Assembly (NCBI GenBank): GCA_030037735.1 | Contig: JASHQC010000034.1 | Span: forward strand, 1-40,273 | Source: Thermoplasmata archaeon | GTDB lineage: Archaea; Thermoplasmatota; Thermoplasmata; Lutacidiplasmatales; UBA184 | Direction of reading: 5' to 3' | DNA length: 40,273 nucleotides | In this document: positions 1 to 22,809 of the stretch, piece after piece | Layout: each line of letters begins with the position of its first letter | How positions within the stretch are numbered: position 1 is the stretch's first letter | Translations under genes and position numbers: made by a program | Notes under the pieces: generated by a model | Database searches by the model: none | Seen by the model: only the letters and a program-made list of their open reading frames with translations | What the model was told of the DNA's origin: nothing

Positions 1-69
1 GCCCCTCGTAGGCTGGTATAGGCGGTTTTCAGCCGCCCTCCTTTTACCCCCGTGAGACTGCCGCCCACG

Positions 70-1209
70 ATGCGGGTCGACGAGATCGGAGAATCTCCAA
101 TCCTCTCGCTCATCGACCGCATCTTCGAGCTGCGCCGAAGCGGCGCCACGATTCTCGGCCTTCACATCGGGGAACCGGACTTCGAGACGCCCGCCGGCAT
201 CCGGGCCGCGGCGGCCCAGGCGATGGACAAAGGACTGACCCATTACGGTCCGGCCCAGGGCATGCTTGACCTCCGCGAGGCGATCGCGGAAAGGCTCCAC
301 CGCTTGCACGCTATCCCCGCGGAGGCAGGCGACGTCGTGGTGATGCCGGGAAAACTCGCCATCTACGCGAGCCTCCTCTCCAGCACGAACCCCGGGGACG
401 ATGTACTGCTCCCCGACCCGACGTATCTCTTCGAGCAGCCGGTGCAGCTTGTGGGCGCCCGGCCGGTCTACTTCCCGCTTCGCGAAGATTACTCGTTTGA
501 CCCCGCGGAGCTAGAGAAAGCGATCACCCCGCGAAGCCGCGTGCTGATTCTGACGTCGCCTTCCAACCCGACCGGCCGACTGCTCTCGCGAGATGAAGTC
601 CAAGCTGCATTGAGGATTGCCCGCGATCACAACCTCACCGTACTGAGCGACGAAACGTACGAATCGCTGGTCTACGAGGGTCCCCACGTCGCGCCGGCCA
701 GCCTGTCCGAGGCCGCGGACCGAGTCGTGACCATCGGAAGTTTCTCCAAGATGTTCGCGATGACCGGATGGCGGGTCGGCTGGGCCATCGCGCCTCCCGC
801 GATGCGGGCACGGCTGGTGAAGGTCATCGAACACACCCTGACGTGCGTCGCGCCGTTCATACAGCGAGCATGCCTCTGGGGGCTCCAGAACGCCGAACCG
901 GATGTGGCAAGATTCCGGGAAGAGTTCAGACGCCGACGTGACGGCCTGTTCGGACTGCTCCAGGAGATCCCGGGTTTAGACGTGGTTCGACCGGCCGGGG
1001 CCTTCTACATGTTCCCCCGGTACCACTTGCCGATCTCCTCGATCGAATTCTGTAACCGGGTGCTCGACGAAGAACATCTCGCGCTCGTCCCGGGCATCTC
1101 CTTTGGACCACGGGGCGAGGGGCACTTCCGGATCTCGTTCACCTCCCCGATGGCCTCCTTGGAGGACGGGGCGAAGCGCCTCCGTCACTTCCTCGAGAAG
1201 GAGAGCTGA
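70..1209 (+). CDS. Class I/II pyridoxal-phosphate aminotransferase (AspC-like)
   Basis: ORF 52..1209; PLP motif SFSKMFAMTGWRVGW, TSPSNPTG, GISFGPRGEGHFRISF. ATG at 70 preferred: TTTTA at 42-46 is about 26 nt upstream. GTG at 52 is the alternative. Confidence 0.9.
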   Translation: MRVDEIGESPILSLIDRIFELRRSGATILGLHIGEPDFETPAGIRAAAAQAMDKGLTHYGPAQGMLDLREAIAERLHRLHAIPAEAGDVVVMPGKLAIYASLLSSTNPGDDVLLPDPTYLFEQPVQLVGARPVYFPLREDYSFDPAELEKAITPRSRVLILTSPSNPTGRLLSRDEVQAALRIARDHNLTVLSDETYESLVYEGPHVAPASLSEAADRVVTIGSFSKMFAMTGWRVGWAIAPPAMRARLVKVIEHTLTCVAPFIQRACLWGLQNAEPDVARFREEFRRRRDGLFGLLQEIPGLDVVRPAGAFYMFPRYHLPISSIEFCNRVLDEEHLALVPGISFGPRGEGHFRISFTSPMASLEDGAKRLRHFLEKES

Positions 1210-1255
1210 GGCGGCCCTAGACGACTTATTGTATCGAAACGTCTCGCCGCGCGCG

Positions 1256-1915
1256 ATGTCGACGCCGCACAAGGTCCACGACCTCACGGCCACCTTCCGA
1301 ACCCACATGCCCGTCTGGCCGACCTCGCCGCTGCCCGTCTTGGAACCGATCGGGGTGGTGGCCCGCGACGGGTACGCCGTGGAACGGCTCACCGCCCTGA
1401 CGCACAGCGGAACCCACCTCGACGCGCCCTACCACTTCATTGAGTCGGGAAAATCCGTAGACCAGATCGCTCCCGCCGACTTGACAGGTGTGGGGGCGGT
1501 TCTCGACCTCCGCAATGAGATCGATGGCGACGTGATCCCCCACGAGGCGATCGAGCGCCACTGGCCGAAGGCGTTCCAACCCGAAATCGTGCTGCTCGAG
1601 ACCGGCTGGAGTCACCGCCGGTCGGCCACCAGGAAGTATCTCTACGACTTTCCCGGAATCGCGCCGCCCTCCGCCGAGTGGCTGGTCCGGAAGAAGATCA
1701 AGGGCGTCGGCACCGACACGCTGGGGATTGACCCGTTCTCCAATAGCAAATTCGAGGCCCACAAAGTGCTGCTCGGCAGGGACATCTGGATTCTCGAAGC
1801 GCTGGACCACTTGGACACGCTCAAGGAAGGAACCCGCTACACGATTGTCGCGGCCCCCCTCAAACTGGAGGGGGCCAGCGGAGCGATGAGCCGGGTCTTC
1901 GCCATCGAGTCGTAG
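1256..1915 (+). CDS. Cyclase family protein (kynurenine formamidase-like)
   Basis: Motif HSGTHLDAPYHF typical of the cyclase/KynB family; in-frame ATG at 1256 inside ORF 1103..1915. Confidence 0.88.
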   Translation: MSTPHKVHDLTATFRTHMPVWPTSPLPVLEPIGVVARDGYAVERLTALTHSGTHLDAPYHFIESGKSVDQIAPADLTGVGAVLDLRNEIDGDVIPHEAIERHWPKAFQPEIVLLETGWSHRRSATRKYLYDFPGIAPPSAEWLVRKKIKGVGTDTLGIDPFSNSKFEAHKVLLGRDIWILEALDHLDTLKEGTRYTIVAAPLKLEGASGAMSRVFAIES

Positions 1916-1928
1916 GAGCGCGAGGTCC

Positions 1929-2723
1929 ATGCCGCTTGCGTCGGGGCTCTCGGGACAACGCGTCCTCGTGACGGCGGCGAGCCAGGGAATCGGCTTCGCG
2001 GCGGCCCGCGCCTTCCTCGAAGAAGGAGCCCGGGTCGTGGTTAACGGGTCACACGCGGCTCGACTCGACAGAGCGGTAGAGGCTCTCCGGTCCCGGGGAG
2101 AGGTCCGCGGCATTGTAGCGAACCTTGCCCTCCACGCCGACCTGGACCGGCTCGTCGACGAGAGCCGGGTCGCACTGGGAGGGATTGACACGTTGGTCTA
2201 TGTCACCGGCTCGCCGGCTCCGGGGACCTTCATGGAGCAGAGTTTCGACAGTTGGCAGGCCGCGGCGAACTTACTCACGGTGGGTCCGGCCTACCTCGCC
2301 CAAAAGGTGGCCGACGTGATGTTGGCCTCGCGCACGCCCGGCCGGATGGTGTTCTCCGCGTCCACCGCAATCCGCGAGCCCATCCCGAACATCGCTACCT
2401 CCAACGTCTGCCGGATTGCGATCGCGGGATTGGTGCGTACCCTGGCGCGAGAGCTGGGGCCCAAAGGGATCCGGGTGAATGGGGTCCTACCCGGGTTCAT
2501 CGCCACCGACCGGCTCACGCACGTCTTCGAGGATTCGGCCCGCCGGCGCGGCATCACGTCCGACCAGGCACGAGAGCTGTCGATGAGGGACATCCCGCTG
2601 GGCCGTGCCGGAGAACCAGAGGAGCTCGCCCGGGTGTTCGTGTTTCTGGGCAGCGATATGTCGTCCTACGTCACGGGGGCCTTGGTCCCGGTGGACGGGG
2701 GCATGCTGCGCTCCGTGGGCTGA
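1929..2723 (+). CDS. SDR family oxidoreductase
   Basis: TAASQGIGFAAARAFLEEGARVV Rossmann motif; GPKGIRVNGVLPGFIATDRL; C-terminal GALVPVDGGMLRSVG. Confidence 0.9.
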   Translation: MPLASGLSGQRVLVTAASQGIGFAAARAFLEEGARVVVNGSHAARLDRAVEALRSRGEVRGIVANLALHADLDRLVDESRVALGGIDTLVYVTGSPAPGTFMEQSFDSWQAAANLLTVGPAYLAQKVADVMLASRTPGRMVFSASTAIREPIPNIATSNVCRIAIAGLVRTLARELGPKGIRVNGVLPGFIATDRLTHVFEDSARRRGITSDQARELSMRDIPLGRAGEPEELARVFVFLGSDMSSYVTGALVPVDGGMLRSVG

Positions 2724-2736
2724 CCATCGGACCCGG

Positions 2737-3093
2737 TCACGGCTCGTCGGGCGGAACGGTCTCGTTCAGGAAGTCCTCTCGCTCCGGCGCAAACACGTCG
2801 AGGACGACCGTGGGCGCCGAGTTGTCGGCCCGGAGCTCATGGGGGACATTGGGCGGTACGTAGTAGGCGTCCCCGACGCCCATCTTCCACGAGACACCGC
2901 CCACCTGAAACATTCCGCCCCCTTCGAGGACCGTGCCGTACTGAGCGTGGGGGTGCGTATGCTTCGGGAAGACTTTCCCCGGCTCGATCCGGTACAGGAC
3001 CATCATGGCCGACGGCGCGTGGGCCAGGATGCGTCGTCGAACCCCGGGCATGATCTCGTGCCACGCGGCATTGGTGTCGTGCCAAAGCGGCAT
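2737..3093 (-). CDS. Cupin domain protein
   Basis: PKHTHPHAQYGTVLEGGGMFQVGG...GDAYYVPPNVPHEL cupin motifs. Confidence 0.85.
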   Translation of the reverse strand: MPLWHDTNAAWHEIMPGVRRRILAHAPSAMMVLYRIEPGKVFPKHTHPHAQYGTVLEGGGMFQVGGVSWKMGVGDAYYVPPNVPHELRADNSAPTVVLDVFAPEREDFLNETVPPDEP

Positions 3094-3140
3094 GAATGAG
3101 CCGACCGGCCCCGGTTATTTCGTCCTATGCCTCAAAGGGG

Positions 3141-4280
3141 CTAACCGAGCGCTTGACGCAGGTCATCGACCAGGTCGTCGCCGTCCTCGATCCCAACCGA
3201 GAACCGCAGTAGGCCCCCGGAGATTCCCTTTTGTTTCTGCTCCGCCGGCGGCATCGCGCGGTGCGTCATCATCGCCGGGTGGTTGACCAGCGACTCGACT
3301 CCGCCCAGGCTCTCGCCGAGCGTGAAGATCTTGAGCCGCCGGGCGACCCGGATCGCCGCGGGTCGCCCGCCGGCCACCTCGGCCGAGACCATGCCGCCGT
3401 ACCCGTCCATCTGGCGAGCTGCGATGGCGTGGCCGGGATGTTCGGGAAGCCCCGGGTAGAGCGTGCGAACGATCTTGGGATGGCTCTTCAGGAAGTCCGC
3501 CACCTTCCGGGCGTTCTCCGCGTGTTGCCGGACCCGGACGCCGAGCGTCCGAATCCCCCGGATCATGAGATAGCAGTCGAACGGGCTGGGGACGCCCCCG
3601 GCCGAGTTCTGGTACCAGTAGAGCTTCTCCAGCAAGGGCCGTGAGCGTACGACCAGGGCCCCGCCCATCACGTCGCTGTGGCCCCCGATGTACTTCGTCG
3701 TCGAGTGGACCACGATGTCCGCCCCCATTTCGAGCGGGCGCTGGAAGACCGGTGAAGCGAAGGTGTTGTCCACGGCGACCTTCGAGTGCCCCTTTCTCGC
3801 GATCGCGACCGCCCCCTTGAGGTCGGTGATCTTGAGGAGAGGGTTAGTCGGAGTCTCCAGGTAAAGCAAATCGACAGGCGGGCCCTCGGCAAATGCGCGC
3901 CGGATGTTCGCTAGGTTCGTGGTATCAATGAAATCCACCCGCACGCCGTGGGTCCGCGAGAGCTCGAGAAGGCGTTGAGCGCCGTGATACAGGTCGTCCC
4001 CCGCCACGATCCGGCTGCCCGAGGGATAGCCCATGAACAGCGCCGAGATTGCGGCCATGCCCGACCCGAAGGCAAGGGCACCCGACCCTCCCTCCAGTTT
4101 CGCTAAGATTCGTTCCAGGGCTGCCCGGGTCGGATTCCCGGTCCGTGAGTAAACGAACCCTTTCGAAACACCCGGCGAAGACTGCTGGAACGTTGTAGAC
4201 AGGTAAACCGGAACGTTCACGGCCCCGGTAAGCGGGTCGGGGGACTGGCCCTCATGGATGAGCCGGGTGTCCCACTCCAT
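3141..4280 (-). CDS. Trans-sulfuration family PLP enzyme (cystathionine gamma-synthase/lyase-like)
   Basis: MEWDTRLIHEGQSPDPLTGAVNVPVYLSTTFQQ; STTKYIGGHSDVMGG (PLP Lys); SLGGVESLVNHPAMMTH. Confidence 0.92.
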   Translation of the reverse strand: MEWDTRLIHEGQSPDPLTGAVNVPVYLSTTFQQSSPGVSKGFVYSRTGNPTRAALERILAKLEGGSGALAFGSGMAAISALFMGYPSGSRIVAGDDLYHGAQRLLELSRTHGVRVDFIDTTNLANIRRAFAEGPPVDLLYLETPTNPLLKITDLKGAVAIARKGHSKVAVDNTFASPVFQRPLEMGADIVVHSTTKYIGGHSDVMGGALVVRSRPLLEKLYWYQNSAGGVPSPFDCYLMIRGIRTLGVRVRQHAENARKVADFLKSHPKIVRTLYPGLPEHPGHAIAARQMDGYGGMVSAEVAGGRPAAIRVARRLKIFTLGESLGGVESLVNHPAMMTHRAMPPAEQKQKGISGGLLRFSVGIEDGDDLVDDLRQALG

Positions 4281-4452: not shown

Positions 4453-6153
4453 ATGACGGCTGCGCTAGGCGCCGAGACGCCGGGCTTTACGGTTCAAACA
4501 CCCGCCGCGACCGCGACGCAGCCGGGGCTGTACGTGCGTCAGACCTCCGGCCTCGTCCGTACCGTCGGACCTCGAACGGCCCTCTTCGCGAACCTCGTCG
4601 GCATGGGCATCATCGTCAACTTCTTCTGGGTCGTCTTTGCCTCTGAAGGCTACCCGAATGCGAACCTGACCGAGACCGTCGCGGTTGGAGTGGTGTTCAA
4701 CCTGGGTGTCGCGTTCGTCTACTGGATGCTGGCGAGCGCCATGCCGCGTTCGGGAGGGGATTACGTCTTCGTCGGCCGAATCTTCCACCCCAGCCTGGGC
4801 TTCGCCACGAATCTGACGTTCAGTTTCATCTTCATTTCCTGGGCCGGCCTCTTTGCGAACTACTTCGCCGCCTTCGGCGTGCCGATGATTCTGGGCGGCT
4901 ACGGGGTGACGGCCAACAACGCCTCGGCCATCAGCATGGCGGCCACGATTTCCAGCAGCACAACGGACATCTTCGTGATCGGGGCGGTCATCCTCATCGC
5001 CGTCATTCTGATCAGCCTCCTGCCGACGAAGTGGATCTTCCGCACCGCCGTCGGCATCTTCGTGATCTCGGGCGTCATCTTCCTGGTCATGGTGGGAATC
5101 CTCTTCTCCACTCCCTACTCGACCTTCGTCGCGGACTGGAATTCGAATCCCCTGAACCTTGCCCAGAGTTGCACGGTGACGGGACTCACCACCTCCAACA
5201 CCGTGCAGTGCGTCATCCAGACCTTCTACACGACGGCCATGACGACCCCGGCCGGTATCGCCTTCACGAACTCGGGCCTGTTCATCGGGGTCGTCTACAC
5301 GATGCTGAGCTTCATCGGCTACGCGAACACGGCCTACTTCGGGAGCGAGATCCGGGGAGCTCCCACGCGGACCCAGGGACTCGCCATCTTCGGTGCTCCG
5401 CTCCTGTTCGCGGCCCTCATCGCGATCCTGTATGCGGGGACCTACTACACCTTCGGCCATCCGTTCCTGGTTGCCGCCAGCTCAGACTGGGGCAACGGAT
5501 GGGGCAATGCGTTCCCGGCCATCCCGTCCCCATTGTTCCTCGTTTCGTATATCGTCCGCAATTCGACCCTGTCGGCCTTCCTGGCCTTCGGCGTCGCTCT
5601 GACGTTCTTCGGCTTCGTACTGATCTACTTCATCGTTCCGACCCGGAACCTGTTCGCCTGGTCCTTCGACCGGATCCTGCCGACCTTCGTGGCGCGCGTC
5701 ACGAGGAGCGGCGTTCCGTTCGTCACCGTGCTCATTCTCGGATTCTTCGCGTTCGTCTGCCTGTGGCTGACGACCTACACCAAGCTGTTCGATTTCCTAA
5801 CCTACGCCAACTTCGGCTTCTGGCTGGCCGTCGGCATCGTTGGCCTCGCCGGGGCGTTCTTCCCCTTCCTGCGGCCGGAACTGTATCGGGCCGCGCCCCG
5901 GATCGTGCGCACGAGCCTCGGACGCCTCCCGTTGATCACCCTGGTTGGGGTCCTTTCGGCAGGAGCCTCATTCTGGATCGTCTACGCCTCGTCTGTCCCC
6001 TCCTACACGCTCGAGACGGTCCAGTGGACCCAGCTCGCGATCTTCCCGATCGTGTTCGTCCTCGGTCTGGTGATCTACGTCATCTCCCACGCGATCCAAC
6101 GCAGCCGCGGACTTCCGATCGACCTCATCAACAAGGAGCTCCCGCCCGAGTAA
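4453..6153 (+). CDS. APC family amino acid permease
   Basis: Multiple hydrophobic segments; MPRSGGDYVFVGRIFHPSLGF motif; paralogous to 20102..21751. Confidence 0.88.
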   Translation: MTAALGAETPGFTVQTPAATATQPGLYVRQTSGLVRTVGPRTALFANLVGMGIIVNFFWVVFASEGYPNANLTETVAVGVVFNLGVAFVYWMLASAMPRSGGDYVFVGRIFHPSLGFATNLTFSFIFISWAGLFANYFAAFGVPMILGGYGVTANNASAISMAATISSSTTDIFVIGAVILIAVILISLLPTKWIFRTAVGIFVISGVIFLVMVGILFSTPYSTFVADWNSNPLNLAQSCTVTGLTTSNTVQCVIQTFYTTAMTTPAGIAFTNSGLFIGVVYTMLSFIGYANTAYFGSEIRGAPTRTQGLAIFGAPLLFAALIAILYAGTYYTFGHPFLVAASSDWGNGWGNAFPAIPSPLFLVSYIVRNSTLSAFLAFGVALTFFGFVLIYFIVPTRNLFAWSFDRILPTFVARVTRSGVPFVTVLILGFFAFVCLWLTTYTKLFDFLTYANFGFWLAVGIVGLAGAFFPFLRPELYRAAPRIVRTSLGRLPLITLVGVLSAGASFWIVYASSVPSYTLETVQWTQLAIFPIVFVLGLVIYVISHAIQRSRGLPIDLINKELPPE

Positions 6154-6210: not shown

Positions 6211-7245
6211 GTGGACGAGGTCGTAGAGGTCGTCGTCGATCCCTTCACGCAGGAGAAGCTCCCCCTCCATCCTCCCCTCGTTTTCCGGACCGATCCGGGC
6301 GAGGCCCGGCGGGCCCTGGGTCTGCCGGACTATGTCGACACCTCCGACCCGGTCATAGCTCACGGCGTCGGCCTGCTGCACGCCCTCTCGCTGGAGCTGC
6401 CCGGCCACGCGGTCGCCCTCCTGGGCGGCGTCGCCTATCGGCTTCGTTCGCCGTCGAGCAACTCCCCCACCTCGGGGCTTCGCCGGTCGCTGCACGACAT
6501 CGACCTGTGCTGCCACCACTCCGACGCGAAGAAGCTGCACAGCGCCCTGCTGAAGATCGGGGAACGGCAAGGGAGCGCGCTGACCGTAGTCGAAACCCAC
6601 GCCGACCGGATGTTCAACGCGCTGATGGGCGGGCGCCGCCTCCGGCTGCACAACGTCAACCAGGTGGTGGACGGACGCTGCGTGCTGGGGACGATCGACG
6701 TGCTCGCGGATGAGTTTCGGTTCTGCCACAACCTCGACCTCAAGGAGGACATCTCTCAGGCGCCGACGAACGGGCACACCCTTCCCCTGTCCACCCTCCT
6801 CCTCACGAAGCTGCAGTACATCCAGAGCATCCCCGCCGAACACCAGGCGCAGGTCCCCGGTCGTGTGCTAGGGCCGTTCGGCAAGAAGGAGGTCCTCATC
6901 GGGCCCGAAGACAAGGACGTGCGGGACATCCTAGCGCTACTGATCGACCGCCCCTTGGGGGAGAGTCTGGGCGAGATCTCCTCGACCCGGTTCGTTCAGC
7001 CGTTGACATCGGACTGGGGCTTTTGGACCACGGTGCGGCTCAATCTGGACCATCTCACGCAAACCCCCCTCTTTGCCGCCTTGCCGGCCGAGGTCCGGCC
7101 GACCGTGCAGAAGAAGGCCGAGGCGCTGCGGGCGGCGACGGACCGGGTCCAGCCGAAGCGCCGCTTCGGTTTCCTGCAGCGGGAATGGTGGGAGCCGGTC
7201 GAAACGCTCGGTACGCCGGCACCACCGGCGACTCCGTCCAGCTGA
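6211..7245 (+). CDS. Nucleotidyltransferase-fold protein (AbiEii-like), paralogue 1
   Basis: LLGGVAYRL..(x)..HDIDLCC plus third acidic residue TIDVLAD; LLLTKLQYIQ; DVRDILALL; SDWGFW. Matches 18345..19133 segment by segment. Confidence 0.7.
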   Translation: MDEVVEVVVDPFTQEKLPLHPPLVFRTDPGEARRALGLPDYVDTSDPVIAHGVGLLHALSLELPGHAVALLGGVAYRLRSPSSNSPTSGLRRSLHDIDLCCHHSDAKKLHSALLKIGERQGSALTVVETHADRMFNALMGGRRLRLHNVNQVVDGRCVLGTIDVLADEFRFCHNLDLKEDISQAPTNGHTLPLSTLLLTKLQYIQSIPAEHQAQVPGRVLGPFGKKEVLIGPEDKDVRDILALLIDRPLGESLGEISSTRFVQPLTSDWGFWTTVRLNLDHLTQTPLFAALPAEVRPTVQKKAEALRAATDRVQPKRRFGFLQREWWEPVETLGTPAPPATPSS

Positions 7246-7251
7246 ACCGGT

Positions 7252-8208
7252 TCAGCCGGTCGTGAGCACGAGCGCCTTGACCCGGTTCGGTTCTAGGTCG
7301 ACGATCAACCCTTGGAGTACCCCCTCGGTGTAAACGCTGCCGGGGTTGGCGCACACCGTCCGACCGAGCTCGGAGAACCCCTTCGATTCGTGGATGTGAC
7401 CGTGGAGGCCCAGGAGCGGCTGGTATTGCTCCACGGCGGCCCGTACCGCCGAGCTACCGACGTGGACCATCTCGGGCTCCCCGCCGGGACCCATGACCTT
7501 CGTCAGGTCCGCGGTCAGTCGGGGCGCGATGTCGAGATGCGTACCTTGGGGGGGGACATGAATGTTGAAGACGGCCCGCTCGGGGTGGTCAAGCTCCTCC
7601 GCCGCGGCACGGATCCGTTCCGTGATCTGCGGCTCCGCGAGTTCCCGGTTCGTGTGCCACGGGGTGATGTTGCTGTACGGGACCGTCAGAAGCTCGTGCG
7701 TGTCGTCGAGACGAAGGATCTTTCCGTCCGTGAGCTCAATGTAGTCGCTCGACGCCAACACACCCTCCATCTCGTCCAGGTCGTCGTTCCCAAGCCCAAT
7801 GAGCGTCCGGATACCGGTCCCCTTGAGTCGGCTCTCCGCGATCGCCATCCAACGGCGCAGCACGTCCAGGGCCAGCGTCCGGAACAGCGCGTCGGCCGTC
7901 CGTCGGTCTGCCGACACGTCTTGCCACTCCTTCGGGGTCGTCCGGTACGGGATTGTCCCCGAGGCCCGCAGGTCTTCTTCGAATCTCGCCAGATCCGAGT
8001 CGGTCTGGACCCATCGACGGCTTCCGAGGTAGAGGCCCGTCCAGCCCCCGTTCTCGGGCCAGAGCGGGGTGATCGTCTTCCCGGCGATGTCTCCCCCGAT
8101 CAGCAGGACTCGGGCGTCGTAGACCTTCCCCGCATTGACGAATTTGCGGAAGCAGCGCTCCGACCCGTGCAGGTCGGAAACGAAGAAGACCCGAGTCGGT
8201 TTCGCCAT
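7252..8208 (-). CDS. Calcineurin-like metallophosphoesterase, paralogue 1
   Basis: FFVSDLHGS, GGDIAGK, GLGNDD, NIHVPPQGTHLD, LHGHIHES metal-binding motifs. Confidence 0.9.
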   Translation of the reverse strand: MAKPTRVFFVSDLHGSERCFRKFVNAGKVYDARVLLIGGDIAGKTITPLWPENGGWTGLYLGSRRWVQTDSDLARFEEDLRASGTIPYRTTPKEWQDVSADRRTADALFRTLALDVLRRWMAIAESRLKGTGIRTLIGLGNDDLDEMEGVLASSDYIELTDGKILRLDDTHELLTVPYSNITPWHTNRELAEPQITERIRAAAEELDHPERAVFNIHVPPQGTHLDIAPRLTADLTKVMGPGGEPEMVHVGSSAVRAAVEQYQPLLGLHGHIHESKGFSELGRTVCANPGSVYTEGVLQGLIVDLEPNRVKALVLTTG

Positions 8209-17263: not shown

Positions 17264-17355
17264 GGGGACGCGCAGTCGAATCTCCGCTAAATCGGTTAGG
17301 GAAGAGGCCGGCGGCGCGAGAAGCCCCTCGAGCGGCCGGGCGGCGGTGGTCTGTG

Positions 17356-17384: not shown

Positions 17385-18341
17385 GTGGGGCGCTTCCGGG
17401 TCTATTTCGTCAGTGACCTGCATGGCTCTGAGGTCTGTTTCCGAAAATTCCTCAACTCCGCGCCCGTCTATTCCCCCGACCTCTTGATCTACGGTGGGGA
17501 CATCCTTGGCAAGACCCTCGTTCCGATCTTCCACGACGAGAACGGCGGGTACCGCTGGTATCCGACGGGCCACGGTGCTCAGCACGTACCGAAGGACGAC
17601 CTCCCCGGCGTTCAGCGGAAGGTCGCCGATTCCGGCCGATACACCCTCGTCACGACTCCCGAAGAGTGGGCCCGATTACAGAAGGCTCCCGAGGAGATGG
17701 AAGCGCTCTTCGGGCGCCTGGCCCTGGAGCGCCTGCGCCACTGGCTCAACCTGGTCGAGGAGCGGCTCACGCCCACGAAAATCCCGGTCGTAATGAACGT
17801 AGGGAACGACGACACCAACGAAGCGCTGGAACTCATCCGGAACGAGGGGCCCGCGAACATGCTGGTCCCCGAGGGACGGGTGGTCCAGGCCGGCCCGTAC
17901 GAGTTCTTCGGCTGCGGGTACGCGAACATGACCCCGTGGCACTGCCCAAGGGACCTCGAGGAAAAGGACCTCGAGCAGGTACTCGATCGCACGCGCGGGC
18001 AGATTGGGAATCCGCGCCGAACGATCCTCGACGTCCATGCTCCCCCGTACGGAACCTCGCTCGACATGGCGGCCGAGCTGGACGCGGAGTTCAAGCCGCA
18101 GGTCGTAGCAGGGCACTTGTTGATGCACCACGTGGGGTCGACCTCGGTCCGAGAGTTGGTCGAGTCGGTTCGGCCGGTGGCCGGCCTCTTCGGGCACATT
18201 CACGAATCGCGGGCCGTGGACACCGTCGAGGGGGTCCCGGTCTTCAACCCCGGCAGCGCCTATTTCAGCGGCCAACTCCAGGGCCTGCTCCTCGACCTCG
18301 ACGGCGACCACGTGCTTTCCCATCTGTTCGTCCTGGGGTAG
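17385..18341 (+). CDS. Calcineurin-like metallophosphoesterase, paralogue 2
   Basis: VYFVSDLHGSEVCFRKF, GGDILGK, NVGNDD, DVHAPPYGTSLD, LFGHIHES. GTG at 17385 has TTATAT at 17356-17361, so it is favoured over ORF start 17346. Confidence 0.88.
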   Translation: MGRFRVYFVSDLHGSEVCFRKFLNSAPVYSPDLLIYGGDILGKTLVPIFHDENGGYRWYPTGHGAQHVPKDDLPGVQRKVADSGRYTLVTTPEEWARLQKAPEEMEALFGRLALERLRHWLNLVEERLTPTKIPVVMNVGNDDTNEALELIRNEGPANMLVPEGRVVQAGPYEFFGCGYANMTPWHCPRDLEEKDLEQVLDRTRGQIGNPRRTILDVHAPPYGTSLDMAAELDAEFKPQVVAGHLLMHHVGSTSVRELVESVRPVAGLFGHIHESRAVDTVEGVPVFNPGSAYFSGQLQGLLLDLDGDHVLSHLFVLG

Positions 18342-18344
18342 CGG

Positions 18345-19133
18345 GTGCCGGACACGGTTCGCCTCGAGGAAGCTCCCTTCATCGGGGAGATCGAGCGGAT
18401 CGTCCGACTGGCCGAGGAACGCGGAATCGTGCTGAGGGCCTGCGGGTCCGTGGGCCTGTACTACCGCCTGCGCCATGACCCGGGCGCTCGCGCCGTCTAC
18501 CTGCTGCGGGATGGAACCTCCCGCGTCACCCCACTCTTCAAGGACCTGGACTTGGCGAGCCAGGAGAAGCACTCCAGCAAGATCTACAAGCTCCTCGTCC
18601 AGGAGCTCGGCTACACGGAGGACCGGGAGACCAACGCGCTCTTCGGGATGTACAGGAACGTCTTCTTCCATCCTGCCTTCTCCATCGACATCTTTTACGA
18701 TGTGCTGCATTTCAGCCATGATATCCCTCTCAAGGACCGGTTCCCGCCGGGAGTGACGCTCACCCCCGAAGACCTGGTGCTCGGGAAACTGCAGATCCAC
18801 AAGACGACGACCCGGGACCTGATGGACCTCGGCGCGGCGGCGATGGCCTTTCACGTTGCCGGGCTGGACCGAGACTACCTCTCCACGATCGTGGGCGACG
18901 ACTGGGGGTTCTGGTACGACTCCGATCAGAACCTCCGACGGAGCAAGGAGCTAGTCTCGAGGCTGCCGACCGATGGGGACCCGGCAAAGCTCGAGATCGC
19001 CTCTCGTGCGGAGCGTCACCTCCAGGAGTACATCGACTTCCTCGCCAACGTGCCGAAGACGCGCCGGTGGGAGAAGCGGAGGGCCAAGGGGACCTCCGAG
19101 CCCTGGTACGAGGACGTGGACGAACTCCACTAG
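18345..19133 (+). CDS. Nucleotidyltransferase-fold protein (AbiEii-like), paralogue 2
   Basis: ACGSVGLYYRL..FKDLDLA, SIDIFYD, LVLGKLQIHK, RDLMDLGAA, DWGFW; starts 3 nt after the MPE stop. Confidence 0.7.
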   Translation: MPDTVRLEEAPFIGEIERIVRLAEERGIVLRACGSVGLYYRLRHDPGARAVYLLRDGTSRVTPLFKDLDLASQEKHSSKIYKLLVQELGYTEDRETNALFGMYRNVFFHPAFSIDIFYDVLHFSHDIPLKDRFPPGVTLTPEDLVLGKLQIHKTTTRDLMDLGAAAMAFHVAGLDRDYLSTIVGDDWGFWYDSDQNLRRSKELVSRLPTDGDPAKLEIASRAERHLQEYIDFLANVPKTRRWEKRRAKGTSEPWYEDVDELH

Positions 19134-20083
19134 CCGTTCCCGGAACGGCGCCGTGCGACGGCGGACATCGCTTCGAAGAGGGCGTTGGCGGCGGTGAGGG
19201 CCGTCACCTGGCCCATGTGGTCGTACTGCGGAGCCACCTCCACCACGTCGAACCCGACCACATGAAGCCGGTGCAGCGCTCGCAGGAAATGAATTAGCTC
19301 CCGGCTGGTGAGCCCGCCCGGCTCGGGAGTGCCGGTGCCCGGGGCGAACGCGGGGTCCAGGACGTCGATGTCGAGCGACACGTAGACGGGCTGGTCCCGG
19401 ATCTCCGCCACAATCTCGTCCATAATCGGGGCGTACCCGCGAACGTCCACATCCTCGGTCGTATACGTGCGATGGACGATTGCCGCATTGTTCGGCACGT
19501 CCTCGGCGCTGTACAGCGGGCTCCGGATCCCGACCTGGAACACGTTGCTCTTCGTGACGAGTCCTTCTTCGTACGCCCGCTTCACCCACGTGCCGTGGGT
19601 GAACCGTTTCGTCCCCCAGTAGGCCTCCCACGTGTCGAAGTGGGCGTCGAAATGGAGCAGGCTCACCGGTGTCCCAGCGGCCGCGCGCTGGGCCCTGAGG
19701 ATGGGAAGCGTGATGGAGTGGTCCCCGCCCGCAGTGAAAGGTACGACGCCGGCCTGGAAGATCGGCCGCAGGCCTTCCTCGATCCGCTGGAACGTGTCCT
19801 CGAGGAAACCGGGCACCGGGTCGATGTCCCCGAAGTCCACGACATCGAGCACCCGGAACGGGTAGACCTGGGCGAACATGTTGTACGAACGAACCAGCCT
19901 CGAATTGTTCCGGATCGCCGACGGCCCTTCGCGGGCGCCGCTCCGGAAACTCGTCGCATCGTCCCACGGTATCCCCAGGAAAACGCCCTTCGCCGTCCGA
20001 AGGTCTTGGGATTGGGGTAGCCGGGCGAACGACGCGATCTGAGCGAATCGTGGGGACCGGCCCAGGCCCTGCGGGTCGGTCAT
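19130..20083 (-). CDS. Agmatinase / ureohydrolase family
   Basis: GGDHSITLPILRA, HFDAHFDTWE, SLDIDVLDPAFAPGTGTPEPGGLTSREL manganese-binding motifs. Confidence 0.93.
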   Translation of the reverse strand: MTDPQGLGRSPRFAQIASFARLPQSQDLRTAKGVFLGIPWDDATSFRSGAREGPSAIRNNSRLVRSYNMFAQVYPFRVLDVVDFGDIDPVPGFLEDTFQRIEEGLRPIFQAGVVPFTAGGDHSITLPILRAQRAAAGTPVSLLHFDAHFDTWEAYWGTKRFTHGTWVKRAYEEGLVTKSNVFQVGIRSPLYSAEDVPNNAAIVHRTYTTEDVDVRGYAPIMDEIVAEIRDQPVYVSLDIDVLDPAFAPGTGTPEPGGLTSRELIHFLRALHRLHVVGFDVVEVAPQYDHMGQVTALTAANALFEAMSAVARRRSGNG

Positions 20084-20101
20084 CGCGACGAACCGGCCGG
20101 A

Positions 20102-21751
20102 TTAGTCCGGAGGGAGTTCCTTGAAGGCGAGCCCGATGTCAATCCCACGGGTCCGCTGGTTGTACCAGCGCGACGCGAGGAAGAGAATCGCCGCGCCGAT
20201 GAAAACGGCCACGATGATGATCGCCCCCGTCTCTTTGTTGGACGGGGTGAACGCGGCCGCGGCGCCTAGGAGCGGCAACGTGGCCACCAGATAGGCCGAG
20301 ACCAACGTCACCACGAACGAGAGACCCCCCGCGATGACGCTGAGCGGCTTGTGGTTCTTGAGACCCAGCCGCGCGAGCGACAGCGACGTGAGCATGACGG
20401 TGAGCATCGGAAGGAAGAACAACAGGAAAACGAACGGCGTGTACAGGGCCGTGTAATAATAGGTGAGGAACGGTAGCAGTATGATCCCCGCGACGCCGAT
20501 GAAGAGAATGCCCACCCACGGCTGGTGCGTCGACCGGGTAACGTTCCCCATCCACTTCGGAACGATGCGGTCCAGCGACATCGAGAGCATGAACCGGGAG
20601 AAAATGTAGAATCCCAGGATCAGCCACAACAGGTACCACGACGCGGAGCCGAGGAAGATAATTCCCAGCCAGATCGAGTTTCCGTGGGCGGCAAACGCCG
20701 GCGCCGACGTGAGTCCCATGGCAAAGGGCAACGTGGCCGTTACGCCGGTGGGACCGGGAATTCCGTAATCCGTGATCGCCACGGATCCGTTGAGGAAATT
20801 CATCCCGACCACGACTTCGAAGGTCCGTACGATGAGCACGGCGAAGGCGACCGACAGGAGGAACGAGATCGCCATCCCGGTGGTGATACTCCGGGAGGAG
20901 CGCTTGAACTCCCCCGCGATGTAGCTCGGCGCCGTGCCGAACATGTAGTAGAAGGCGAACAGTAACGGAACGAACAGGATCGTATTCGTAAGGCTCGACC
21001 CGTAGGCTCCAAAGTTCGCCGCGCCGTAGGCAGAGATGGCCTGGTAGTACGTCGGATCACCGGTATAGTTGTTCACGGCGTTGACGAAACCGGTGTGGCC
21101 CATCGCGAGCAGCAGGCCCACCGATACCAGGATTCCGAAGAGCTCGAGGATGAGGAGGGCTGAAAAGATCTGAAAGGCGACCTTAGGCTTCATGACGATC
21201 CAGAGGGCCATCGCGACGAGCGTCACGAGGATTCCAATAATGGTGATGTAGAGCGGATTACCGATGACGAGACTGATGCTGTTCCCCTCGGTGAGCAGGT
21301 GGGCATTGCTGGTGAACGCCCCCCACACGGCGAGGCTGGGCCCGACGCTCAGCGTCGAGAACCAGTACGGGAGCACCGCAGCGTAGATGATGACGTTGAG
21401 GAGGCGACCGAAGGCCGACAGGATGCCGAAGTAGGGGTGGAGCTGCCGGGACGAGTACACGTACTCCCCCCCCGACCGGGGCATCTCGATTCCGATCAAC
21501 GTGTACGTGACGATAATCGGGATGGCGATGAGGGCGGCCAGCGCCGTGGCCTGCATCAAGTTCGCCCCGGTGACGAACAGCAGGATGATCAGGAACAGAC
21601 CGAAGGCGGGGCCGGGTCCGAGCGAAATGAGGTTGATCGAGAAGGACTCGAAGGCCCCCAAGTCCTTGACCAGTCCACTGGTCTTTCGCGCGAAGACAGT
21701 CCTCTCAACTTCCGCGGTCGCGGCGGCCGTGGCGTCCGCTGTTGCAGCCAT
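20102..21751 (-). CDS. APC family amino acid permease
   Basis: MPRSGGEYVYSSRQLHPYFG; about 12 hydrophobic segments; paralogue of 4453..6153. Confidence 0.9.
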   Translation of the reverse strand: MAATADATAAATAEVERTVFARKTSGLVKDLGAFESFSINLISLGPGPAFGLFLIILLFVTGANLMQATALAALIAIPIIVTYTLIGIEMPRSGGEYVYSSRQLHPYFGILSAFGRLLNVIIYAAVLPYWFSTLSVGPSLAVWGAFTSNAHLLTEGNSISLVIGNPLYITIIGILVTLVAMALWIVMKPKVAFQIFSALLILELFGILVSVGLLLAMGHTGFVNAVNNYTGDPTYYQAISAYGAANFGAYGSSLTNTILFVPLLFAFYYMFGTAPSYIAGEFKRSSRSITTGMAISFLLSVAFAVLIVRTFEVVVGMNFLNGSVAITDYGIPGPTGVTATLPFAMGLTSAPAFAAHGNSIWLGIIFLGSASWYLLWLILGFYIFSRFMLSMSLDRIVPKWMGNVTRSTHQPWVGILFIGVAGIILLPFLTYYYTALYTPFVFLLFFLPMLTVMLTSLSLARLGLKNHKPLSVIAGGLSFVVTLVSAYLVATLPLLGAAAAFTPSNKETGAIIIVAVFIGAAILFLASRWYNQRTRGIDIGLAFKELPPD

Positions 21752-21960
21752 GGTTCGTTTTCAGTGGCCAAGGAGTCGATTCGGAAAACCTGAGGGTCTC
21801 TGTCCCCGGGTCAACACCGATCGAACCGGTCCCCCGCGCACGAGGTCAGCAGCAAGTTTTGCTATCTAAATCCACCGATTTTGCCGGGTCGCCTTTTCGC
21901 TCACGCACTGCGCTGGGCCCGGTTACCGCCCTTTTCTACCCGACGAGATTCCCTCGGACG

Positions 21961-22809
21961 ATGCGCGTCGCCCTGAATCAGTTCGCCCCCGAGTTTCCCG
22001 GACGGGATCGGAACTGGGAGCGGATCCGGGGGGCCGCGGAAGCGACCGAGGCGGATGTAGTGGTGTTCCCGGAGCTCACCTCGACTGGGTACATGTACCA
22101 GAACCGCGCCGAGATCGCGCCGTACAGCGACTCGCGGGAGGCGCTGCGTTCCCTCGGACCGATCGCACGCCAGCATGGCCGGCTGATCGTGGGCGGCTTC
22201 GCCGAGCGCGTCGGCGGAAAACTGTTCAACAGCGCCTACGCGGTCGGCCCGGACCGGACTTGGGTGTACCGTAAGATCCATCTGTGGAACATGGAGAACG
22301 AGATCTTCGGGACCGGCAACCAGGAGCTTACGTTCGAGTTCCAAGGCCACCGCATCGGGATCATCGTCTGCTACGACCTCCAGTTCCCCGAGCTGGCCAG
22401 TTACTATGCTGCCAAAGGAGTCGAGCTGTTACTCGTCCCCATGGCGTGGGCGGAAGAGCCGGTGCCGCTCGGTTCTCCGTTGCAGATTTACAATCACCTC
22501 GCTATCTCCACGGCATTCTCCCACGGGATCTATGTCGGAGTTTCCAACCGGGTGGGAACGGAACGGGGAGCGGTCTTTCCAGGACAATCGAGCCTGACCG
22601 ACCCGTTCGGCCGGATCCAATACCTCGATTCTGCGGAAGGCACCCTCCTCGCGACACTCGATTTCTCCCTGCTCGGAAAGGCCAAGCAGCCCAATCCACG
22701 GAACAATCTCGACACGGATCCGCGTCTCCGGATATCGCTCCCGAAGCCGGCGCCGGCCCGCCGAACGCGTCGGGCGAAGTATCGGCGCGGCCGCTCCTCT
22801 CGGCGCTAA
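21961..22809 (+). CDS. Carbon-nitrogen hydrolase (nitrilase superfamily)
   Basis: Glu/Lys/Cys triad FPELTSTGY, YRKIHLW, IVCYDLQFPE; ATG at 21961 with TTTTCTAC about 27 nt upstream. Confidence 0.92.
   Translation: MRVALNQFAPEFPGRDRNWERIRGAAEATEADVVVFPELTSTGYMYQNRAEIAPYSDSREALRSLGPIARQHGRLIVGGFAERVGGKLFNSAYAVGPDRTWVYRKIHLWNMENEIFGTGNQELTFEFQGHRIGIIVCYDLQFPELASYYAAKGVELLLVPMAWAEEPVPLGSPLQIYNHLAISTAFSHGIYVGVSNRVGTERGAVFPGQSSLTDPFGRIQYLDSAEGTLLATLDFSLLGKAKQPNPRNNLDTDPRLRISLPKPAPARRTRRAKYRRGRSSRR

Follow-up and report, generated by a model that had tools for sequence, protein, structure and literature searches.

A three-gene module

Our analysis strongly supports the view that the pairing of a Pol-beta-type nucleotidyltransferase (NTase) with a calcineurin-like metallophosphoesterase (MPE) in a Thermoplasmata archaeon is not due to chance, and that the two enzymes belong to a three-part module with one clade of APC-type permeases. 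By analogy with known enzymes, the module may be a reversible nucleotidylation switch for uptake, in which the permease, or a target close to it, would be modified by the NTase and reset by the MPE; we hold this reading tentatively, as somewhat short of probable. Two copies of the module are found in the window, by which we mean the whole stretch of 40,273 nucleotides that was analyzed. Its relevant features are as follows:

4453..6153, + strand: APC-type permease P1 (AA_permease_2), copy 1; PF13520 E 2.7e-17; N-terminal motif YVRQTSGL at 4531-4554, C-terminal KELPPE at 6133-6150
6211..7245, + strand: NTase1, Pol-beta-type nucleotidyltransferase, copy 1; ORF with GTG start, 344 aa
7252..8208, − strand: MPE1, calcineurin-like phosphoesterase with GNDD, copy 1; ORF, 318 aa
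17385..18341, + strand: MPE2, copy 2; ORF; PF00149 E 8.6e-06
18345..19133, + strand: NTase2, copy 2; ORF, 3 nt after MPE2
19130..20083, − strand: arginase-family hydrolase, between the copy 2 enzyme pair and P2; PF00491 E 1.1e-89
20102..21751, − strand: APC-type permease P2, copy 2; N-terminal FARKTSGL, C-terminal KELPPD
21955-22806, + strand: nitrilase-type hydrolase

In copy 1, P1 ends 57 nt upstream of NTase1, and NTase1 and MPE1 are convergent, their ORFs ending tail-to-tail with a 6 nt gap, as the first-pass annotation had described. In copy 2, the MPE2 ORF opens at a GTG at 17346, with a start near 17385 favored by the homologues, and P2 lies ≈1 kb beyond NTase2. The arginase-family hydrolase that intervenes is context and not a constant member of the module. 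The two pairs had been called homologous in both partners, and they are: MPE1 and MPE2 share 37% identity over their length, while NTase1 and NTase2 share only about 22–23%, their families aligning by hhalign with a probability of 99.9 across 260 columns. Every motif named in the first-pass annotation was found in the window's NTases and MPEs. What it overlooked was the third constant member, the APC-type permease.

Co-occurrence and gene order

Separate profile searches of 390 genomes in the phylum found NTase, MPE and permease in the same seven genomes (G000, G031, G033, G071, G285, G401 and G444, from four families), with thresholds of E ≤ 1e-25 for the MPE and E ≤ 1e-60 for the permease that were set after seeing the family scores. 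The only extra NTase match was a short fragment interrupted by two stop codons (G065:C104:10879-11007), possibly a decayed copy. Although related genomes are not independent, the distribution is patchy over the four families, which argues that the three genes travel together. The window's own genome has four full clade permeases that adjoin four MPEs one to one, and three of these have an NTase.

More widely, an MPE-based scan of species genomes, biased towards MPE-bearing loci, yielded 80 MPE loci, and their neighbors were clustered. A permease was present at 74 of them, an NTase at 63 and both at 61; in 42 of the 80, no more than 100 bp separate the permease from the MPE open frame, and both are on the same strand. 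By their record titles, the archaeal loci come from Thermoplasmata, Nitrososphaeria, Bathyarchaeota, Baldrarchaeota and Sifarchaeum MAGs, and the bacterial loci from Chloroflexota, Dormibacterota, Actinomycetota, Bacillota, Spirochaetaceae and Proteobacteria. The 24 whole genomes behind the loci all encode all three families. Of their 40 MPEs, 37 have a clade permease within 5 kb and 29 have an NTase within the same distance. Since these 24 genomes were themselves picked through the MPE, it is the 390-genome test that is least affected by selection: its separate profiles correct the bias of the MPE scan within the phylum, and it is likewise for the window's own phylum that genomes lacking the MPE were shown to lack the permease clade. 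Among 101 genomes weighted to the genus and family, 16 had true family members, and in each of these an NTase adjoins at least one MPE. The distance matrices of the three proteins correlate with r of 0.54–0.76, uncorrected for species phylogeny.

The functional partnership suggested in the first-pass annotation is thus borne out in other genomes, far beyond the archaea and into many bacterial phyla. None of the outcomes that had been named beforehand as speaking against it occurred: other genomes have the families together, structure prediction gives an NTase fold, and the catalytic residues have not been lost.

Both the tail-to-tail order of copy 1 and the co-directional order of copy 2 are kept across species, and in three genomes (L038, L040 and L042) the NTase and MPE of a third paralogous pair flank the permease. 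In the cultured haloarchaeon Halobellus limi, all three genes are side by side, with the NTase annotated only as "hypothetical protein", and ≈10 bp separate the permease from the MPE in Thermomicrobium roseum. A fourth MPE paralogue clade in this genus (L044–L050; for example L047, G000:C3:33637-36438) has a clade permease adjacent and no NTase nearby, as do 8 of the 40 MPEs in the 24 genomes. These pairs raise the alternative that the MPE is the true partner of the permease, in some lipid, nucleotide or phosphate chemistry, while the NTase, as an accessory, serves some other target, such as tRNA. We consider this rather unlikely, as all 24 MPE genomes also encode an NTase somewhere, and the MPE and NTase families share one distribution in the phylum.

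The permease clade and its termini

Of the 71 module permeases, 69 matched AA_permease_2 (PF13520) across the transporter core, a profile that they have in common with other APC permeases. Judged by profile scores, however, they are one sharply separated clade: in a 145-genome sample of the phylum, clade members scored at least 217 bits and the next-best APC permeases at most 106 bits. At a loose threshold, many genomes of the phylum carry other APC permeases.

The clade also has its own terminal motifs. An N-terminal motif, [FY]xRx[AST][ST]G[LM], precedes the first membrane helix in 70 of the 71, and the exact C-terminal end reads [EQP][ILVM]P[PVA]x, typically E-[IL]-P-P-E, in 70 of the 71 as well; both motifs were absent from all 29 other APC permeases of the phylum. 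A stricter first C-terminal pattern had matched 45 of the 71, and the relaxed one was drawn up after inspecting the exceptions, so that the informative part of the tail result is the comparison with the 29 other permeases. Serine or threonine occupies the position equivalent to P1 residue 32 in 70 of the 71, where it could have a structural role. From the usual topology of APC transporters, both termini are probably cytosolic.

The nucleotidyltransferase

An AlphaFold2 model of NTase1, made with 81 sequences, had a pLDDT of 94.1 and a pTM of 0.91. The leading Foldseek matches in the PDB were Pol-beta-type NTases, consistent with the NTase fold proposed earlier, although they were weak (best E 1.7e-3, TM about 0.25–0.34). 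The AbiEii-family toxin MenT3/TglT (Rv1045) came first, and FAM46A, a fungal NTase-like protein, Pol lambda, Pol mu and ANT(2'')-Ia were also among them. Searching solved structures by sequence with the NTase profile gave no credible match. Across the 81 sequences, G72, D96, D98, R143, H173, K200, Q202, D236 and D239 are invariant and the third acidic residue, D163, is always D or E; in NTase1, the motifs thus fall at 96/98 (DxD), K200/Q202 and D236/D239. The uncharacterized nucleotidyltransferase family NTP_transf_5 (PF14907) showed a weak profile likeness, matching 5 of 25 NTase family members (best E 4e-5), with NTase1 at 12.2 bits, below the gathering score of 31.2.

The description "AbiEii-like" holds for the fold and for the order of the DxD, K and D motifs, which is comparable to that in the AbiEii/MenT toxins (DUF1814, PF08843), but fails at the level of the family profile, as none of the 25 family members matched PF08843 at E ≤ 1. 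The NTase differs from these toxins also in its transporter context and its partners: no antitoxin-like neighbor was seen at the module loci, where the constant partners are the MPE and the permease. A defense system was among the earlier suggestions. A toxin–antitoxin or anti-phage role, with the MPE neutralizing an AbiEii/MenT-like toxin, has the closest NTase fold in its favor, but we regard it as very improbable. Permease and metabolic genes are constantly linked to the pair, and synteny is conserved across the genus. There were no matches in 50,697 phage records and only three in plasmid records, two of them near full-length, while the matches on viral contigs were only to distant generic MPEs. 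A PADLOC match of the MPE to the defense candidate PDC-S10 was weak (about 31 bits), covered only part of the profile and was discarded, the context being one of transport.

The metallophosphoesterase

The MPE1 model had a pLDDT of 97.0 and matched the calcineurin-like phosphoesterases Aq_1956 (E 2.7e-11), TT1561, SbcD, Mre11 and Rv0805, in agreement with the fold first assigned to it. The metal ligands (DxH, the D of GD, GNDD, H and GHxH) do not vary among 83 sequences, and MPE2 scored above the PF00149 cut-off, placing the family in the calcineurin-like superfamily by metal ligands and fold. YfcE, Rv0805, Aq_1956 and TT1561 share this fold and these metal-ligand motifs, but the MPE differs from them in GNDD, an extra region between GD and GN, a length of about 318 aa and its fixed permease partner.

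GNDD replaces GNHD/E in all 83 MPEs. The GNH[E/D] signature of class III phosphodiesterases of subclass A, the Rv0805/CpdA type (PMC4320098), is therefore absent from the family. YfcE, a GNCD enzyme, cleaves linear phosphodiesters, but neither phosphomonoesters nor cyclic NMPs (PMC4320098). By this analogy, the MPE is likelier to be a phosphodiesterase than a monoesterase.

These properties bear on the possibility that the NTase makes a nucleotide signal that the MPE degrades and that controls the permease. The NTase fold is also that of signal-making enzymes, and Rv0805, a cyclic nucleotide phosphodiesterase, is one of the class III MPEs. However, the inactivity of YfcE on cyclic NMPs speaks against such a second messenger, and Pfam showed no signal-binding domain on the permease. 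Permeases also tend to have an MPE of their own, as would be expected of a local target more than of a diffusible signal. We therefore think a second messenger quite improbable.

A possible nucleotidylation switch

For a transporter associated with both an NTase and a phosphodiesterase, the simplest arrangement is addition and removal of a nucleotidyl group, and the idea that one partner adds what the other removes is, we infer, still the best reading of the pair. The transfer, its target and the direction of its effect are all putative. The NTase would move an NMP from an NTP onto a hydroxyl of the permease or of a target bound to it. The Ser/Thr of the N-terminal [FY]xRx[AST][ST]GL, just before the first membrane helix, is a candidate acceptor, and the fixed C-terminal ...E-[IL]-P-P-E tail might be a docking site. 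Cleavage of the linear phosphodiester by the MPE would then reset the permease. The most specific form of this proposal, a widespread class of APC permeases nucleotidylated directly and reversibly at the cytosolic N-terminus by a dedicated NTase and phosphodiesterase with EIPPE docking, is possible but more doubtful than not.

Such a switch would work in a manner like that of GlnD, with unrelated hydrolase and transporter families. GlnD combines NTase and phosphodiesterase activities that modify and unmodify PII (GlnK), which gates the transporter AmtB (PMC4274968). There, as in the module as proposed, opposing nucleotidylyl-transferring and -removing activities set the state of a transporter-gating protein. 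However, GlnD is one bifunctional protein, while the module has a separate NTase and calcineurin-like MPE, and Pfam gave no match to a GlnD-type hydrolase domain. The transporter of the GlnD system belongs to the Amt family and that of the module to the APC family, and no PII protein was seen.

The main difficulty for a nucleotidylation switch is the permease–MPE pairs that lack a local NTase. With 11 of the 40 MPEs and the whole L044–L050 clade having no NTase nearby, the MPE may have a separate role. Alternatively, an NTase encoded elsewhere would act in trans at these loci, which is possible because every one of the 24 MPE genomes has one. A Nitrososphaerales MAG (G465, behind locus L095) encodes ten clade permeases, two MPEs and three NTases, numbers that suggest action in trans on several permeases.

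No paper joining the NTase, MPE and permease families was found in the open-access literature searched. The three-gene module is apparently undescribed as a system, although each part comes from a known superfamily, and public records give generic names ("APC family permease", "metallophosphoesterase", "hypothetical protein"). With the module, two orphan enzyme families acquire a specific partner, the permease. That the module is conserved in several phyla of archaea and bacteria implies a general means of controlling transporters, one that current annotation leaves unnamed. If the NTase does modify the permease, transporters would have a new form of post-translational control, and if nucleotidylation occurs at the N-terminus, it would amount to a previously unknown gating of nutrient uptake, common to archaea and bacteria.

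Neighboring genes

The genes around the module are diverse: 63 neighboring ORFs matched 59 Pfam families, none of which occurred in more than seven. The catabolic ones include FGGY kinases, BtpA, acetamidase/formamidase, SDR, cyclase, nitrilase and aminotransferase genes, and the window has an arginase-family enzyme, a nitrilase-type enzyme and PLP enzymes. This setting would suit a chemistry of the substrate itself, in which the NTase nucleotidylates an imported amine, amino acid or sugar-like compound, trapping or activating it, and the MPE cuts the conjugate. Aminoglycoside and lincosamide NTases nucleotidylate small molecules; ANT(2'')-Ia was among the fold matches, and Lnu(D) was a very weak profile match. 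The MPE profile matches included LpxH and Rv0805, whose substrates are nucleotide-linked compounds or cyclic nucleotides. However, the catabolic genes change between loci while permease, MPE and NTase remain constant, which is why we favor permease control over one-substrate chemistry. The surplus of clade permeases over both enzymes in G465 is also at odds with substrate chemistry, and the conserved permease termini would be superfluous to it. We judge it unlikely, if still worth considering.

In two Thermogemmatispora loci (L101:2545-5000 and L107:2542-4997), BtpA-family and FGGY-kinase genes lie between the permease and the MPE. In the window, the arginase-family hydrolase, P2 and the nitrilase-type hydrolase are grouped at 19130-22806, a cluster that suggests the use of a guanidino or amide compound. 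Upstream of P1, at 52-4280, are genes for an aminotransferase, a cyclase-family hydrolase, an SDR, a cupin and a Cys/Met PLP enzyme; cyclase and SDR genes recur near the module in other phyla too.
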